Below are positions 1 through 64,000 of a DNA stretch of 64,000 bases, piece after piece. A program made the translations under genes and the position numbers. Positions within the stretch are counted from its first letter, which is position 1; each line of letters begins with the position of its first letter. The stretch covers positions 1 to 64,000 of the forward strand of contig JAJZBK010000004.1 in NCBI GenBank assembly GCA_021798955.1, in the 5' to 3' direction. The notes under the pieces are model-generated. The model was given only the letters and a program-made list of their open reading frames with translations, made no database searches and was not told the origin of the DNA. Source of the stretch: Actinomycetes bacterium (GTDB lineage: Bacteria > Actinomycetota > Acidimicrobiia > Acidimicrobiales > RAAP-2).

Positions 1-374
1 GCGGCCTCGGAAGGGCGGCGTCGGAAGGGCGGCCTCGGAAGGGCGGCCTCGGATGGGCGGCCTCGGAAGGGCGGCCTCGGATGGGCGGCCTCGGATGGGC
101 GGCCTCGGATGGGCGGCGGCGGAAGGGCGGCGGCGGAAGGGCGGCGTCGGAAGGGCGGCGGCGGAAGGGCGGCGTCGGAAGGGCGGCGTCGGAAGGGCGG
201 CCTCGGAAGGGCGGCCTCGGATGGGCGGCCTCGGAAGGGCGGCCTCGGATGGGCGGCCTCGGATGGGCGGCCTCGGATGGGCGGCGGCGGAAGGGCGGCG
301 TCGGAAGGGCGGCGGCGGAAGGGCGGCGTCGGAAGGGCGGCGGCGGAAGGGCGGCGGCGGAAGGGCGGCGGAAG
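1..374. repeat. 14-bp minisatellite array, about 26 copies
   Basis: The unit is GCGGCCTCGGAAGG, with variation at three positions (CCT/CGT/CGG in the middle, AA/AT near the end). The array runs from the window edge to about position 374 and may continue upstream. It lies just beyond the lpdA stop codon. Three overlapping open frames here merely translate the repeat (14 bp gives a 42-bp, 14-residue period) and are not credible genes. Confidence 0.95.
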
Positions 375-9226: not shown

Positions 9227-9350
9227 GACCGGGCCGGAGTCAGCCGGGCCGGAGCCAGCCGGGCCGGAGTCAGCCGGGCCGGAGTCAGCCGGGCCGGAGT
9301 CAGCCGGGCCGGAGTCAGCCGGGCCGGAGTCAGCCGGGCCGGAGTCAGCC
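9227..9350. repeat. 15-bp stop-codon repeat at the cysO 3' end
   Basis: About eight copies of CAGCCGGGCCGGAGT. Read on the cysO strand the unit is TGACTCCGGCCCGGC, and the first copy begins exactly at the cysO TGA stop. Because 15 is a multiple of three, the array is a run of in-frame stop codons. Confidence 0.95.
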
Positions 9351-9620
9351 GCCGGCGACAGCCGGCACGATCGAGATGGTCTGCCCGTCGGCGACCGGCG
9401 TGGCGAGCCCCTCGAGAAAGCGGACGTCCTCGTCGGAGAGGAACACGTTCACGAAGCGACGGAGCTGGCCGGACTCGTCGAAGAGCCGCTCGGCGAAACC
9501 GGGGTGGGCGGCATCGAGGGCCTTGAGCACCTCGCCGACCGTCCCACCATCGACGAGCACCTCTCCGACACCGCCGGTCAGTGTGCGCAACTGGGCAGGG
9601 ACACGAACCTTGACGCTCAT
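9345..9620 (-). CDS. cysO: CysO-like ubiquitin-fold sulfur carrier protein
   Basis: 91 residues of the MoaD/ThiS family ending in the diglycine AVAGG needed for thiocarboxylate formation. It closely matches mycobacterial CysO, notably in LRRFVNVFLSDEDVRF and GLATPVADG. In mycobacteria CysO thiocarboxylate donates sulfur to O-phosphoserine through CysM, and Mec releases cysteine. Neither cysM nor mec is in this window. The ATG overlaps the last codon and stop of thrC (ATGA), so the two are co-translated. The stop codon is the first of a stop-codon repeat array. Confidence 0.88.
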   Translation of the reverse strand: MSVKVRVPAQLRTLTGGVGEVLVDGGTVGEVLKALDAAHPGFAERLFDESGQLRRFVNVFLSDEDVRFLEGLATPVADGQTISIVPAVAGG

Positions 9621-19630: not shown

Positions 19631-19649
19631 CGTCCGTGTCTACCAACCC

Positions 19650-19753
19650 GGCTGGCCGCAGCACCAATGCGGAGCGGCTGGCCGCAGCACCAATGCGGAG
19701 CGGCTGGCCGCAGCACCAATGCGGAGCGGCTGGCCGCAGCACCAATGCGGAGC
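19650..19753. repeat. 26-bp tandem repeat, four copies
   Basis: Unit GGCTGGCCGCAGCACCAATG plus CGGAGC, four essentially identical copies in the divergent region between the MBL-fold gene and marR. Confidence 0.95.
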
Positions 19754-19892
19754 GAGCGGCGCGGCCTACGAGGGGCAGTGCCGAGCAAGACCGCTTTACC
19801 AGCGAGACCCGACCGGCGCGACCTGGCCAGTGCTCGGACCGCAAGCGGTCACCACCGGTCGGCGAGGCCGAACGGGACCGAACGTGGCGCGC

Positions 19893-37607: not shown

Positions 37608-37633
37608 CAGGCACGCTCGACGGCACCTCGGGG

Positions 37634-37832
37634 CGGGGCCGGGCCCAACGTGGCGGGGCGGGGCCCAACGTGGCGGGGCCGGGCCCAACATGGCGGGGCC
37701 GGGCCCAACGTGGCGTGGCGTGGCGTGGCGTGGCGTGGCGTGGCGTGGCGTGGCGTGGCGTGGCGTGGCGTGGCGTGGCGTGGCGGGGCGGAGCGGGGCG
37801 GGGCGGGGCGGAGCGGAGCGGGGCGGGGCGGG
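37634..37832. repeat. Compound array: 20-bp units then 5-bp units
   Basis: About four copies of a 20-bp unit (core GGGCCCAACGTGGCGGGG) run into about 15 copies of TGGCG and then GGGCG/GAGCG pentamers. It is strongly strand-asymmetric in G versus C and lies 25 bp past the NERD gene stop. Confidence 0.95.
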
Positions 37833-37880
37833 ACCTGGCTCGACGTCCGCCTGCCGGAGGCTGATGCAACTAGCAGCGGC

Positions 37881-37987
37881 CTCTGACCGCCAACCCCTCT
37901 GACCGCCAACCCCTCTGACCGCCAACCCCTCTGACCGCCAACCCCTCTGACCGCCAACCCCTCTGACCGCCAACCCCTCTGACCGCC
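37881..37987. repeat. 16-bp tandem repeat, 6.7 copies
   Basis: Unit CTCTGACCGCCAACCC. It is the second array in the same 544-bp gap between the NERD gene and the beta-propeller lipoprotein gene; apart from the arrays that gap holds nothing I recognise. Confidence 0.95.
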
Positions 37988-59228: not shown

Positions 59229-59310
59229 CCCTTTACCACCCGGGCCCCAGACCCGGCGCTCCAGTACCGCTCTGGCGGCGCGCTCGGACGGGGGGGATGA
59301 TGGGCTCGCC

Positions 59311-60885
59311 ATGGCCGTGCACCCCCTCACACCAGGCACGTCCCCGTCGACGGCGCCCGTCGTCGACCGCCGAGCCAGCACGCGGCGGACCGCCGTTGCC
59401 GGCTCGGTCCTCGCCATCGTCCTCGTCGCCGTCCTCGCCGCCGTCCTGGTGCCCCTCAGGGACCACCTGAACGTAGCGACGGCCGCCCTCGTCCTCGTAG
59501 TCCCCGTCGTCGCCGGGGTCGCCGTCGGCGGCTTCGCCGCCGGCATCGTGGCGACGGTCACTGGCTTTCTGGCCTACGACTTCCTCTTCATCCCGCCCTA
59601 CTCCACCCTGTCGGTCGGCGCGGCGCAGAACTGGACCGCGCTCGGGGTCTACGCCGTGGTGATGGTGGTGGTAGCCCGCGTCGTCGCCCGGCTCGACGCT
59701 GCTCGAGCCGAAGCCCAGTACCGGGCCGGCAGTGTCCGACGCCTCTTCGACCTCTCCGAGCTCCTGGTGCGCGACCTGGCTGTCGGCGAGCTCCTCGAGA
59801 CGATCGTGGACGCCATGGTGCCGGCGTTCGCCCTCGACGGCGCTGCGCTGTTGCTGCCGTCGGAGGACGGGCTCGAGCTGGTGGCCTCGGCCGGCCGACC
59901 GCTCGACCGAGAGGAACTCGACCGTCTCTCCGCCCACTCGGCCGTGCCGGTCACCATCGGGCGGACGGCAGCGCGCCAGGGCGACGTGCAGGTCCTGGCC
60001 CTCGAGGCGTCCGGACGGGCCATCGGGCTGCTGGCGCTGCGTGGCCCGGCCGAGACCGGGAGCGACCGCGACCTGCTCGGTGCGTTCTCCAACCACCTCG
60101 CGCTCGCCCTCGAGCGCTCCCAGCTGCGCGAGCAGGCCGTCCGGGCCCGTCTTCTCGAGGAGGTCGACCGGCTCCGCCGCTCGCTGGTCGGCGCCGTCTC
60201 CCACGACCTCCGGACCCCGCTCGCCACCATCAAAGTGGCGACGTCGACCCTCCTCGACACCGGAGCCCCGGTCGGGCCCCAGGACGCCGCCGAGCTGGTC
60301 GGGCTGGTCGACGCCCAAGCCGACCGGCTCGAGCGCCTCGTCTCGAACCTCCTCGACATGACCCGCATCCAGTCGGGTGCGCTCGAGCTCCGACGGAGGC
60401 GTGTGGCGGTCGCCGATCTCGTCGACGAAGCGATCGCCCTCGTCTCCACCGCACCCGAGCCGGCTCCCGTGGCGGTCGTCATGCCCAGCCACCTTCCCGA
60501 CGTCGACGTCGACCCCGTCCTCGTCCGGCAGGTGCTCGCCAATCTCGTCGACAATGCCGTCCGTCACGCGCCCGAGAGCGAACCGGTCACCGTGTCAGCC
60601 ACGCTGCGCCCCCACGGTCGCGTCGAAGTGGCCGTCGAGGACCGGGGGCCGGGCGTGGCAGCCGACGAGCGCACCACGATCTTCGAGATGTTCAACCGCC
60701 GCGAGGCAGGCGGTCGCGGTGGGCTCGGCCTCGCCATCGCCAAGGCGTTCGTGGAGGCCCACGGTGAGCGCATCTGGGTCGAGGACGCCCCGACCGGTGG
60801 GGCGCGCTTCTGTCTCACGTTGCCCCCTGCCAACCAGGACGCCACCGACGTCGTCGTCCACGCCGCCGGACGTGGGGCACCCTGA
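59311..60885 (+). CDS. kdpD: KdpD-type sensor histidine kinase lacking the N-terminal KdpD and Usp domains
   Basis: 524 residues. Four membrane segments of the DUF4118 type (about 25-115; GFLAYDFLFIPPYSTLSV), a GAF domain (about 140-275), then HisKA with GAVSHDLRTPLATIK, N-box NLVDNAVRHAPE, G1 EDRGPGVAADE and G2 GGRGGLGLAIAKAF. Classic KdpD (about 900 residues) begins with a cytoplasmic KdpD/Usp region that is absent here, so sensing must rely on the membrane and GAF parts. It is followed two bases later by kdpE. The ATG at 59311 comes after a GATGAT box. Confidence 0.88.
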   Translation: MAVHPLTPGTSPSTAPVVDRRASTRRTAVAGSVLAIVLVAVLAAVLVPLRDHLNVATAALVLVVPVVAGVAVGGFAAGIVATVTGFLAYDFLFIPPYSTLSVGAAQNWTALGVYAVVMVVVARVVARLDAARAEAQYRAGSVRRLFDLSELLVRDLAVGELLETIVDAMVPAFALDGAALLLPSEDGLELVASAGRPLDREELDRLSAHSAVPVTIGRTAARQGDVQVLALEASGRAIGLLALRGPAETGSDRDLLGAFSNHLALALERSQLREQAVRARLLEEVDRLRRSLVGAVSHDLRTPLATIKVATSTLLDTGAPVGPQDAAELVGLVDAQADRLERLVSNLLDMTRIQSGALELRRRRVAVADLVDEAIALVSTAPEPAPVAVVMPSHLPDVDVDPVLVRQVLANLVDNAVRHAPESEPVTVSATLRPHGRVEVAVEDRGPGVAADERTTIFEMFNRREAGGRGGLGLAIAKAFVEAHGERIWVEDAPTGGARFCLTLPPANQDATDVVVHAAGRGAP

Positions 60886-60887
60886 CC

Positions 60888-61565
60888 ATGGCCACGGTGC
60901 TCGTCGTCGACGACGATCGTGCCCTGCTGAGGGCGCTCCGGGTAGGGCTCGCTGCTCGCGGCCACGAGGTGTCGGTGGCGGTGACCGGCGAGGAGGGGCT
61001 CTCCAAGATCGCCCTGTCGAGCCCCGAAGTGGTGGTGCTCGACCTCGGCCTTCCCGACCTCGACGGCCTCGAGGTGTGCCGACGCGTCCGCCAGTGGAGC
61101 GACGTGCCCGTCATCGTGCTCTCCGCCACCGGCCTCGAGGAACGCAAGGTCGCCGCCCTCGACGGAGGTGCCGACGACTACGTCACCAAGCCCTTCGGCA
61201 TGGCCGAGCTCGAAGCCCGCATCCGCGCCGCCCTCCGGCACCGTCCGGCCGAGGTGACGCCAGGCGACGAAGTGATCACGACCGGTTCGCTCGCCGTCGA
61301 CTTCGTCCACCACCAAGTCTCCCTCGACAACCAGACGGTCGACCTCACCGCGCGCGAGTTCGACCTTCTCGCCTTCCTGGCCCGCAACGTGGGCAAGGTC
61401 TGCACGCACCGGATGATCCTGAGCCAGGTCTGGGGGAGCGAGTACGGCAGCGAGACCGAGTACCTGCGGGTGTACGTCTACCGGCTCCGACGGAAGCTCG
61501 GAGACCCCGAAGGCCGGTTGGTGCGCACGGCACCGGGCATCGGCTACGCCCTCGAGCCAGGCTGA
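60888..61565 (+). CDS. kdpE: KdpE response regulator (OmpR family)
   Basis: 225 residues. Receiver domain with DDD near the N-terminus, phospho-acceptor Asp in VVVLDLGLPDLDG and Lys in YVTKPFG; a winged-helix OmpR/PhoB DNA-binding domain (LTAREFDLLAFLARNVGKVC, YLRVYVYRLRRKLGDPEG). It should activate kdpFABC at low potassium or high osmolarity. GTTCAC direct repeats in front of the downstream operon are likely targets. The stop codon begins an 11-bp repeat array. Confidence 0.93.
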   Translation: MATVLVVDDDRALLRALRVGLAARGHEVSVAVTGEEGLSKIALSSPEVVVLDLGLPDLDGLEVCRRVRQWSDVPVIVLSATGLEERKVAALDGGADDYVTKPFGMAELEARIRAALRHRPAEVTPGDEVITTGSLAVDFVHHQVSLDNQTVDLTAREFDLLAFLARNVGKVCTHRMILSQVWGSEYGSETEYLRVYVYRLRRKLGDPEGRLVRTAPGIGYALEPG

Positions 61566-61650
61566 GCCGGGGCTGAGCCGGGGCTGGTCACGGGCTGGTC
61601 ACGGGCTGGTCACGGGCTGGTCCCGACCGGCCCCCGACCGGCCCCCGAGG
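61563..61650. repeat. 11-bp arrays starting at the kdpE stop codon
   Basis: Two copies of TGAGCCGGGGC, the first TGA being the kdpE stop, then about three copies of TGGTCACGGGC and two of ACCGGCCCCCG. All three units have the same 11-bp length. Confidence 0.92.
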
Positions 61651-61714: not shown

Positions 61715-61780
61715 GTTCACGAATTGTTCACGGCGACGCGGCCCGCGTTCACACCGGGTTCACGGCCCGTCCGTCAAGGT
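61715..61780 (+). promoter_or_regulatory. kdp operon control region with four GTTCAC boxes
   Basis: GTTCAC occurs at 61715, 61726, 61747 and 61758: two pairs, each with an 11-bp period, the pairs 32 bp apart (three helical turns). This is the tandem direct-repeat layout bound by OmpR/PhoB-type regulators. A CAAGGT -10 box (61775-61780) lies 6 nt before the ATG at 61787. Confidence 0.7.
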
Positions 61781-61786
61781 GGCCGT

Positions 61787-61870
61787 ATGGGAGATCTGAT
61801 CGCCGTCCTCGGGACGCTCGCCTTCTTCGCCGCCATGCTCGGCCTGGTCTGGGGGCTCGACCGGCTGTGA
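61787..61870 (+). CDS. 27-residue membrane peptide upstream of kdpF
   Basis: Encodes MGDLIAVLGTLAFFAAMLGL followed by VWGLDRL: one membrane segment with an acidic start and a basic LDRL end. Its stop overlaps the kdpF GTG (GTGA), and the kdp promoter lies directly in front of it. I recall similar unnamed short frames ahead of kdpF in other genomes. It could be an extra Kdp subunit or a coupling leader; too short for routine annotation. Confidence 0.65.
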   Translation: MGDLIAVLGTLAFFAAMLGLVWGLDRL

Positions 61871-61956
61871 GCCCGACCGACGGCATCCTGCTCGCCCTCT
61901 CGGTGGTGCTCCTTGTCTACCTGGGCGTGGCCCTCTTCAAGGCCGAGTGGTTCTGA
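61867..61956 (+). CDS. kdpF: KdpF, small stabilising subunit of the Kdp ATPase
   Basis: 29 residues: VSPTDGILLALSVVLLVYLG followed by VALFKAEWF, one membrane helix with the ending typical of KdpF (KAEWF; compare INAEAF in E. coli). It stabilises the KdpABC complex. The GTG start overlaps the preceding stop; its own TGA overlaps the kdpA ATG. Confidence 0.85.
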   Translation: MSPTDGILLALSVVLLVYLGVALFKAEWF

Positions 61957-63647
61957 TGGGCTACTTCTGGACCATCGTCGTCCTCGTCGCCGTCCTGGCC
62001 CTCGCCTGGCGATTCCTCGGCTCGTACCTGGCCGCCGTCTACGAGGGGCGGGTCACCTACCTGCGCTTCGTCGAGCGCCCCCTCTACCGCCTGCTCGCCG
62101 TCGACCCTGAGGCCGAGCAGAGCTGGACCCGCTACGCCGGTGCCCTCCTCGTCTTCTCGGCCGTCGCCCTGCTGCTCTCGTACCTGCTCATCCGCATCCA
62201 GGGCTCGCTTCCGTTCAACCCCCAGCACCTCGGGGCCGTGCCACCGGCACTGTCGTGGAACACGGCGGTGTCCTTCGTCACCAACACCAACTGGCAGAAC
62301 TACGCGGGCGAGTCGACGATGTCGTACTTCTCGCAGATGGCCGTCCTCGAGGTCCAGCAGTTCGTGAGCGCGGCGGTCGGCATCGCGGTGGCTGTCGCCC
62401 TCATCCGGGGGTTCGCCCGCCGGGGCTCGTCCACCATCGGCAACTTCTGGCTGGACCTCGTGCGCGGCGTCCTCTATGTGCTCGTCCCCATCGCCTTCCT
62501 CGCCGGCGTCGTCTTCGTGGGCCAGGGCGCAGTGCAGACCCTCGGCGGTCCGGCGGTCGTCCACAACGCGCTCGACGGCGCCACCCAGACCATCGCGCGG
62601 GGTCCGGCCGGCTTCATGGAAGCGATCAAGCAGCTCGGGACCAACGGTGGCGGGTTCTTCAACGCCAACGGGGCCCACCCCTTCGAGAACCCCACTGGGC
62701 TCACCAACCTGCTGTCGATCGCCCTCCTCCTCTGCATCCCGGTGGCACTCACCTACACCTTCGGCAAGCTGGCGGGCAGCGTGCGGCAGGGGGTGGCCGT
62801 GCTCGCCGCCATGACGATCATCTTCGGCGCCTGGCTGGGCGTCGCCTCCTTCGCCGAGTCCCAGCCCAACCCGGCCGTCACCGCCACCCATGCCGTGGCC
62901 CAGCCACAGGGGAACATGGTGGGCAAGGAGGCCCGCTTCGGCCCCCTGTCGTCCTCCCTCTACAACGTCGCCTCGACCCAGACGTCGACCGGGTCGATCG
63001 ACAGTGCCAACGACTCCTACACCCCGATGGGTGGGTTCGCGCTGCTCACCGGCATGATGCTCGGCGAAGTCACCCCCGGTGGCGTCGGGAGCGGTCTGTA
63101 CACGATCCTCCTCTTCGCCATCATCACGGTGTTCATCGGCGGGTTGATGATCGGACGAACACCCGAGTACCTGGGCAAGAAGATCCAGGCTCGCGAGGTC
63201 AAGCTCGCCGCCTTCGCCGTCCTGGTGATGCCACTCGTGGTGCTCGTGCTCACCGCCGTGGCCACCTCCGTCCATGCCGGCCGAGCGGGACCGCTGAACG
63301 CCGGGCCGCACGGTTTCTCGGAGATCCTCTACGCCTTCACCTCGCAAGCCAACAACAACGGCTCCGCCTTCGCCGGGCTGTCGGGCAACACCGCCTTCTA
63401 CAACGTGACCGGCGGCCTGGCCATGCTCTTCGGGCGCTTCGCCATCATCGTCCCCACGCTGGCGCTCGCCGGCACGCTGGCGGCGAAGGAGGCCGTCCCG
63501 GCCGGGCTCGGGACCTTCCGCACCGACACCCCCCTGTTCACCGGGCTGCTCATCGGCATCATCATCATCGTCGGCGGCCTCACCTTCTTTCCGGCGGTCG
63601 CCCTCGGGCCGATCGTCGAGCAACTCAGCCACGGGAGGCTCTTCTAG
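61956..63647 (+). CDS. kdpA: Potassium-transporting ATPase subunit KdpA
   Basis: 563 residues, full length, with about ten membrane segments. Selectivity-filter loops of the channel-like subunit are visible: NTNWQNYAGE, LGTNGGGFFNANGAHPFENP, TPMGGFALL and TSQANNNGSAFAGL. It binds and passes K+ while KdpB hydrolyses ATP. It overlaps kdpF by one base and is followed at once by kdpB. Confidence 0.97.
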   Translation: MGYFWTIVVLVAVLALAWRFLGSYLAAVYEGRVTYLRFVERPLYRLLAVDPEAEQSWTRYAGALLVFSAVALLLSYLLIRIQGSLPFNPQHLGAVPPALSWNTAVSFVTNTNWQNYAGESTMSYFSQMAVLEVQQFVSAAVGIAVAVALIRGFARRGSSTIGNFWLDLVRGVLYVLVPIAFLAGVVFVGQGAVQTLGGPAVVHNALDGATQTIARGPAGFMEAIKQLGTNGGGFFNANGAHPFENPTGLTNLLSIALLLCIPVALTYTFGKLAGSVRQGVAVLAAMTIIFGAWLGVASFAESQPNPAVTATHAVAQPQGNMVGKEARFGPLSSSLYNVASTQTSTGSIDSANDSYTPMGGFALLTGMMLGEVTPGGVGSGLYTILLFAIITVFIGGLMIGRTPEYLGKKIQAREVKLAAFAVLVMPLVVLVLTAVATSVHAGRAGPLNAGPHGFSEILYAFTSQANNNGSAFAGLSGNTAFYNVTGGLAMLFGRFAIIVPTLALAGTLAAKEAVPAGLGTFRTDTPLFTGLLIGIIIIVGGLTFFPAVALGPIVEQLSHGRLF

Positions 63648-64000
63648 ATGGCCGCGCCACACCCCGGGGACACCGCTCCGGACCCGACGACGACCCCGAC
63701 TGGAGACGACACCACCGCCCGCCCCCACGGGGTCGCCAAGCCCCGACGGCTCTTCGACCGCGAGATCCTCGGCCCTGCCGTCGTCGAGGCGTTCCGCAAG
63801 CTCCACCCGAAGGTACAGGTCCGCAACCCGGTCATGTTCGTGGTGCTGGTGGGCACGGTGGTCACCCTCGTCGAGGCGGTCGCCCACCCGTCGGTGTTCA
63901 CGTGGTCGATCACCGTGTGGCTGGCCCTCACCGTCCTCTTCGCCAATTTCGCCGAGGCGGTGGCCGAGGGCCGGGGCAAGGCCCAAGCCGAGACGTTGCG
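63648..64000 (+). CDS. kdpB: Potassium-transporting ATPase ATP-binding subunit KdpB (5' part)
   Basis: The first 117 codons; the gene runs off the window. After about 30 Thr/Asp/Pro-rich residues, the family N-terminus appears: AVVEAFRKLHPKVQVRNPVM, then FVVLVGTVVTLVEAV, TVWLALTVLFANFAEAVAEG and RGKAQAETLR. It is the P-type ATPase that drives the KdpA channel. Confidence 0.95.
   Translation, partial: MAAPHPGDTAPDPTTTPTGDDTTARPHGVAKPRRLFDREILGPAVVEAFRKLHPKVQVRNPVMFVVLVGTVVTLVEAVAHPSVFTWSITVWLALTVLFANFAEAVAEGRGKAQAETL

Follow-up and report, generated by a model that had tools for sequence, protein, structure and literature searches.

Four GTTCAC boxes lie upstream of kdpFABC in the window (the whole stretch of 64,000 nucleotides that we analysed). 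These boxes very probably form a kdp operator that is read by the neighbouring response regulator KdpE as two tandem dimers, with the downstream dimer substituting for a -35 element and low potassium giving rise to a leaderless transcript. For the four boxes themselves, two tandem KdpE dimers would be the best explanation. The first-pass annotation had predicted a KdpE site here; we extend this reading in that the downstream pair of boxes is most likely a part of the core promoter.

Four GTTCAC boxes between kdpE and kdpFABC

The first-pass annotation described the boxes, at 61715-61763, as two direct-repeat pairs with an 11-bp period, 32 bp apart. We found that all four boxes are exact matches on the plus strand (Table 1), and a pattern scan confirmed the spacing: the start-to-start steps of boxes I-IV are 11, 21 and 11 bp, with a pitch of 11 bp inside each pair (I-II and III-IV), 32 bp from pair to pair, and a 15-bp linker between the pairs. 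A pair of 6-bp direct half-sites with a 5-bp spacer is present twice at the window's kdp, and the 221-bp gap between kdpE and a leading ORF of 27 codons contains all four boxes. GTTCAC occurs 37 times on both strands of the window, compared with a shuffle mean of 25.05, and 37 was reached in one of 100 shuffles. Under a Poisson model at the observed density, about 1e-4 clusters of four same-strand copies within 49 bp would be expected per window. In the whole genome (2.52 Mb, 54 contigs) the exact pattern GTTCAC-N5-GTTCAC occurs four times, two at kdp and two of the PHO-box type; when up to one mismatch was allowed, there were nine matches in the genome versus one for the control pattern.

Table 1. 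Features of the kdp region in the window. Minus positions are counted from the putative transcription start at 61787.
Feature	Position	Strand	Relative to start	Basis
Kinase half of KdpD-like protein (DUF4118, GAF, HisKA, HATPase)	59311..60885	+		best NCBIfam match KdpD, far below cut-off
kdpE, OmpR-type response regulator, proposed to read the boxes	60888..61565	+		PF00072, PF00486
Box I, GTTCAC	61715..61720	+	-72 to -67	exact match, conserved column block
Box II, GTTCAC	61726..61731	+	-61 to -56	exact match, conserved column block
Box III, GTTCAC	61747..61752	+	-40 to -35	exact match, conserved column block
Box IV, GTTCAC, at the -35 region	61758..61763	+	-29 to -24	exact match, conserved column block
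Putative -10 element, CAAGGT	61775..61780	+	-12 to -7	conserved columns
Putative start of a leaderless transcript, at base 1 of the leading ORF	61787	+		fixed -10-to-start-codon spacing
Leading ORF, 27 codons (MGDLIAVLGTLAFFAAMLGLVWGLDRL), one hydrophobic stretch	61787..61870	+		conserved peptide
kdpF	61867..61956	+		TIGR02115, 26.6 bits, just below the cut-off of 26.85; scanned without first codon
kdpA	61956..63647	+		PF03814, TIGR00680
kdpB, runs past the window end	63648..64000	+		ORF; continuation has E1-E2_ATPase domain

The boxes directly precede kdpFABC with kdpDE linked, which is the gene context of a KdpE-controlled promoter. The OmpR-type regulator that the first-pass annotation placed beside the boxes is indeed there: the kdpE product has a receiver and a Trans_reg_C domain, and its best NCBIfam match is KdpE, although at 202.7 bits versus a cut-off of 325. 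The start of the KdpD-like kinase was taken from the ORF list, and the domain scans used 59278-60885. Past the window end are the rest of kdpB, kdpC, and then a distinct gene that encodes the KdpD sensor and Usp domains; KdpD is split, with the kinase half before kdpE and the sensor and Usp half after kdpC (59311-60885 and L219:2464-3894). Among the matches listed, from which records of this genome itself may be missing, the closest named kdpA records come from Acidimicrobiaceae and other actinomycete metagenome assemblies. The leading ORF had no NCBIfam match, and its peptide has a mean pN of 0.138 over a mean pS of 0.407, a ratio of 0.34 (321 pairs). Four genomes (L222-L225) that we call Mycobacterium-like from their kdp site encode a peptide matching it in length and pattern ahead of kdpF, and in Mycetohabitans the corresponding position is taken by a 34-codon ORF with the annotation 'potassium ABC transporter ATPase'.

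Conservation of the boxes in related kdp promoters

Of the 172 genomes in the window's family, 115 gave a match to KdpA and 87 a close match to KdpE, with E values up to 1e-66. We assembled 134 upstream regions, copies included. kdpF was unrecognised in 12 of them, as was the leading ORF in three more, leaving 119 regions, 99 of them distinct; five with a wrong or cut start were dropped (L022, L027, L152, L214 and L218), and removal of near-copies (at least 75% identical) reduced the remaining 94 promoters to 82. These comprise 75 promoters known to be from the window's family and seven of other or uncertain family (L006, L010, L053, L056, L058, L060 and L063). For the alignment, the promoters were anchored where the leading small ORF begins; this ORF was required to have 26-28 codons, so that its uniform length is partly selected.

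In the 82 nonredundant promoters, four half-sites with the core NTTNA each keep an almost constant distance to the leading ORF's start codon. T at -70, -59, -39 and -28 is found in 66, 71, 73 and 77 promoters (61, 67, 66 and 71 of the 75 known to be from the family), and A at -68, -57, -36 and -25 in 57, 60, 64 and 62. Outside the four box blocks, the -10 element and the start, the information content is low, with little conservation between the pairs. When a register of +/-1 base was allowed, the core T and A were kept in all four boxes of 68 of these 75 family promoters, in three boxes of six, and in two boxes of one. The comparison with relatives, which had been proposed as a check on the KdpE site with absence of conservation counting against it, came out in favour of the site. 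The pair-to-pair pitch is not constant, being 32 bp in 47 and 31 bp in 26 of the 82 promoters; in 37, boxes I and III fit best when started at -72 and -40. In the window's lineage the steps from box to box are 11-21-11; a portion of the 82 promoters has 11-20-11 instead.

To describe the periodicity independently of any motif, we computed a repeat spectrum of the 82 promoters against 20 shuffles, which peaked at lags of 11, 20/21, 31/32 and 42/43 bp. The observed counts over the shuffled means were 226/9.8 at lag 11, 61/6.2 at lag 20, 35/5.6 at lag 21, 105/4.6 at lag 31, 98/5.8 at lag 32, 45/5.2 at lag 42 and 64/4.8 at lag 43, and no other lag between 6 and 60 exceeded a z of 2.6. From the shuffle counts and this spectrum, a chance origin of the four boxes was rejected.

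Published KdpE sites and the four-box layout in other bacteria

The KdpE site of E. coli has been described as the half-sites TTTATA-N5-TTTACA under a 23-bp footprint from -72 to -50 (PMC3264566). Like the pairs in the window, it is a 6-N5-6 direct repeat with an 11-bp pitch. In contrast to the window, the published site is one pair instead of two, and its half-site letters differ; if the window's start is 61787, boxes I-II lie at -72 to -56, and the E. coli footprint matches these two boxes only. In M. smegmatis, the reported site is a single one of 22 bp (CCGTAAAGAAACCATCAAGGCC, GTAAAG-N5-ATCAAG) with a 120-bp 5' UTR (PMC5401905). It has the same 11-bp pitch, and its letters match the TTNAAG class found in the window's family; one pair and a 120-bp 5' UTR stand against two pairs and a probably leaderless transcript in the window. 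In two of the four Mycobacterium-like genomes (L222 and L223), the distance to the leading ORF differs from that in the window. By eye, these two have an extra box, GTAAAG or GTCAAG, 21 bp upstream of the pair corresponding to the published site, placed as box II is before box III in the window. For Deinococcus, a T-rich region before kdp has been reported (PMC5716572). The available text of PMC9239096 and PMC7657598 does not resolve the half-sites of KdpE, and we found no four-box KdpE operator in the titles and abstract openings of the listed KdpE-site literature, which consisted mostly of open-access papers. The KdpE reading of the first-pass annotation is thus supported by the conservation of the boxes, by the KdpE-like neighbour, and by published sites of the same 6-N5-6 form.

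We then searched the regions upstream of kdpA in other groups for sets of four hexamers resembling one another, placed at 0, d, P and P+d, over a grid of alternative d and P. Among 63 nonredundant regions, E. coli included, only d=11 with P=32 stood out, with nine regions at a score of at least 26 and seven at a score of at least 28, while the other cells had 0-5 and 0-2. In ten plasmid-borne kdp regions that were fetched after this peak had been seen, the same cell was found in six, and the other cells in 0-2. Of the 81 regions in the combined outside set, 73 were nonredundant, and these 73 had 15 at a score of at least 26, compared with six for the best rival cell (d=9, P=27, as expected of codon rhythm), and 12 at a score of at least 28, compared with at most two for any other cell. 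Among 940 control windows drawn from L069-L132 of that collection, one reached a score of 26. The 15 regions include E. coli, Enterobacter, Duffyella and Streptomyces, of which the first three were counted separately though related to one another. The other 58 of the 73 regions were below the threshold; in these the layout may be absent, the half-sites may have diverged too far for self-similarity, or some of the regions may miss the promoter.

In Duffyella, the boxes read TTTATA-N5-TTTATA-N15-TTTACA-N5-TATATA, followed after 10 nt by TAGACT. Ideonella has CTTGAT, CTTGAT, CTTGTC and CTTGAT with TAGCAT after 11 nt, and E. coli has TTTATA, TTTACA, TTTGCG and TTTGCA with TACCCT after 10 nt. The second E. 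coli pair, TTTGCG-N5-TTTGCA, lies exactly 32 bp from the published pair, and we found no mention of it in the available text of PMC3264566. The same layout recurs in some promoters of other phyla, and on this comparison it seems to be old.

KdpE as the proposed reader of the boxes

By their letters the boxes form three classes, which correspond to different recognition helices of KdpE. The helix YLRVYVYRLRRKL occurs with GTTCAC or ATTCAT boxes, which is the class of the window; YLRVYAHRLRRKL and similar helices occur with mostly GTTGAC or GTTAAC boxes; and YVHAYVHRLRQKL occurs with TTNAAG or TTCAG boxes. Of 70 loci tried, a subset of a longer list of KdpE places, 68 yielded a KdpE sequence; seven of these were without a helix match or a paired promoter, leaving 61 genomes. 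At position 6 of box IV, with a register of +/-1 base, the R-type helix goes with C in 18, T in two and G in two genomes, and the H-type helix with G in 38 and A in one; in a fixed register the counts are C15, G4, A2 and T1 for R, and G38 and C1 for H. Since the change between R and H is a single event on the KdpE tree (SH-aLRT 99), this covariation counts once, and we take it as good but single evidence that KdpE would be the reader.

As we read the motif, the R/H position appears to be that of R193 in E. coli KdpE, a residue reported to be important for DNA binding (PMC3264566). The rule agrees in the two other families of the order that were examined (G044 with H and G056 with R). A prediction of H at this position in the Mycobacterium-like KdpE failed: R was found in all four genomes, with boxes mostly ending in AAG. 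G038 and G040 also have the R-type helix although their boxes end mostly in AAG; in L341 and L353 the helix was not matched. Because the extension to the Mycobacterium-like genomes failed, the rule, as judged from these sequences, is local.

Actinobacterial PHO boxes are 11-bp direct repeats that start with GTTCACC, and the window's boxes share with them the hexamer GTTCAC and the 11-bp pitch. It could therefore be argued that the boxes are PHO boxes bound by PhoP and that this organism has kdp in its phosphate regulon, a reading that we consider improbable. The same genome does contain two GTTCACC-N4-GTTCACC sites (L031, G000:C16:18843, and L034, G000:C54:4811), each before an MFS-type ORF with a putative phosphate-symporter signature. 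In both of these sites the seventh base is C, whereas at kdp the bases after boxes I-IV are G, G, A and G, and no GTTCACC heptamer repeats are found there. Moreover, the kdp boxes of relatives shift to the GTTGAC or TTNAAG types while the PHO-type sites in the same genomes (for example, G147 and G149) stay GTTCACC, and the four-box layout occurs at kdp of other phyla with other letters. The window's boxes thus differ from the actinobacterial PHO box in the seventh base, in the four-box layout with its 15-bp linker, in gene context and in evolutionary drift. Since G147 and G149 have PHO-type sites together with kdp boxes of quite a different class, the sequences indicate that the two are separate motifs, with a hexamer common to both in the window's lineage. 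PhoP could conceivably act as a second reader of the kdp boxes. In E. coli, PhoR has been reported to phosphorylate KdpE (PMC7657598).

GTTCACC-N4-GTTCACC was found in 32 of the 172 family genomes, with one match for the control pattern, and 31 of 35 such places were inspected. At least ten of the 31 precede an ORF with GMGFFTDAYDLF or a close or cut-off form, a signature that we take to be that of phosphate symporters. Two long ORFs behind such sites matched Pfam MFS_1 and Sugar_tr when tested, and a 91-residue ORF fragment from the window's genome had no Pfam match. Three of the 31 precede an ABC ATPase resembling PstB (one tested: ABC_tran), and several others stand before other genes or within coding-like sequence. 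The ORFs behind the two sites in the window's genome are nearly identical, and both stretches end inside the ORF; by eye, the L034 site follows an arsenate-reductase-like ORF.

The downstream pair as a probable part of the core promoter

The alignment of the 82 promoters contains a -10 element of the type xAnnnT at -12 to -7, with A at -11 in 73 promoters and T at -7 in 77. C is found at -1 in 71 of them, and the start codon is ATG in 75 and GTG in seven. The fixed step from the -10 element to the start codon suggests that the kdp mRNA is leaderless and starts at 61787. A pattern scan for sigma-70 consensus promoters gave no match. In class II activation of the OmpR/PhoB kind the last repeat stands about 10-11 nt before the -10 element without a good -35 element, and box IV lies 11 nt before the putative -10. 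The earlier placement of the boxes 'upstream of the kdp promoter' needs correction for boxes III-IV, which would lie within the promoter itself, where a -35 element would otherwise be.

Tandem operators of the PhoB/OmpR type, such as the pho boxes of E. coli pstS, consist of 11-bp direct repeats bound by tandem dimers, the final one lying about 10 nt ahead of the -10 element. The pitch, the tandem form and the distance to the -10 element in the window are like those of such operators that replace the -35 element; unlike them, the window has a 15-bp linker that splits two pairs, and the letters differ. In 16 four-box promoters with a pitch of 31 or 32, TAnnnT occurred ten times at 16-20 nt from the start of box IV and at no other offset from 6 to 59; at the preset offsets of 14-18, it was found in only seven of the 16, against a background of 0.031.

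Alternatively, boxes I-II alone could be the KdpE site, with the letters of boxes III-IV serving an alternative sigma factor as its -35 element (SigF-like GTTC). The E. coli footprint was reported for -72 to -50 only (PMC3264566), and the kdp promoter of M. smegmatis has been called SigF-dependent from GTTC-N13-GGGCA (PMC5401905), both of which would fit. However, in any one lineage boxes III and IV look like boxes I and II and the two pairs change together, the peaks of the repeat spectrum at 31/32 and 42/43 arise only with both box pairs, the 11-bp separation of III and IV is the half-site pitch, and the -10 element is of the xAnnnT type. We judge that the sigma-factor reading has little chance of being correct and prefer a second KdpE dimer at boxes III-IV. 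The spacing of the M. smegmatis 'SigF' motif (PMC5401905) equals that from box IV to the -10 element in the window; as a lead, the M. smegmatis 'SigF' promoter may be a box IV followed by a -10 element.

After the kdpE stop codon, at 61560-61648, there is an 11-bp minisatellite with the units GGCTGAGCCGG, GGCTGGTCACG and ACCGGCCCCCG, and many other high-identity short tandem repeats occur along the window (1-370, 9229-9365, 19649-19754, 37632-37987 and others; 47 rows, overlaps included). That the boxes are functionless leftovers of this array (GGCTGGTCACG), whose 11-bp unit contains GGTCAC, is extremely unlikely and was rejected from the comparison with the sister genome G001, in which a different 10-bp repeat replaces the array and the four boxes are unchanged; the boxes are, besides, conserved across the family.

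Discussion

We propose that a phosphorylated KdpE dimer would bind boxes I-II (-72 to -56) and a second dimer boxes III-IV (-40 to -24), on about the same helix face as the first. The downstream dimer would replace the -35 element and bring RNA polymerase to the weak -10 element (-12 to -7), and low potassium would then lead to a leaderless mRNA from the ATG of the leading small ORF.

On balance, we favour the idea that across bacteria the kdp operator consists of four half-sites with the layout 11-21-11, bound by two KdpE dimers at a distance of 32 bp; the literature would then describe half of this operator. It is likewise somewhat probable that in this general model the downstream dimer covers the -35 region and lies 10-11 nt from the -10 element, and that E. 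coli has TTTGCG-N5-TTTGCA as an unrecognised second pair. The KdpDE system has been much studied, and the E. coli operator has been described as one 23-bp site (PMC3264566). If the operator is double, with the second dimer at -35, this would suggest how KdpE contacts RNA polymerase, and a simple mutational test would be possible in E. coli K-12. For the Acidimicrobiia, which are known mainly from metagenome assemblies, the kdp region would provide a model of a leaderless low-potassium promoter that can be read from sequence alone.
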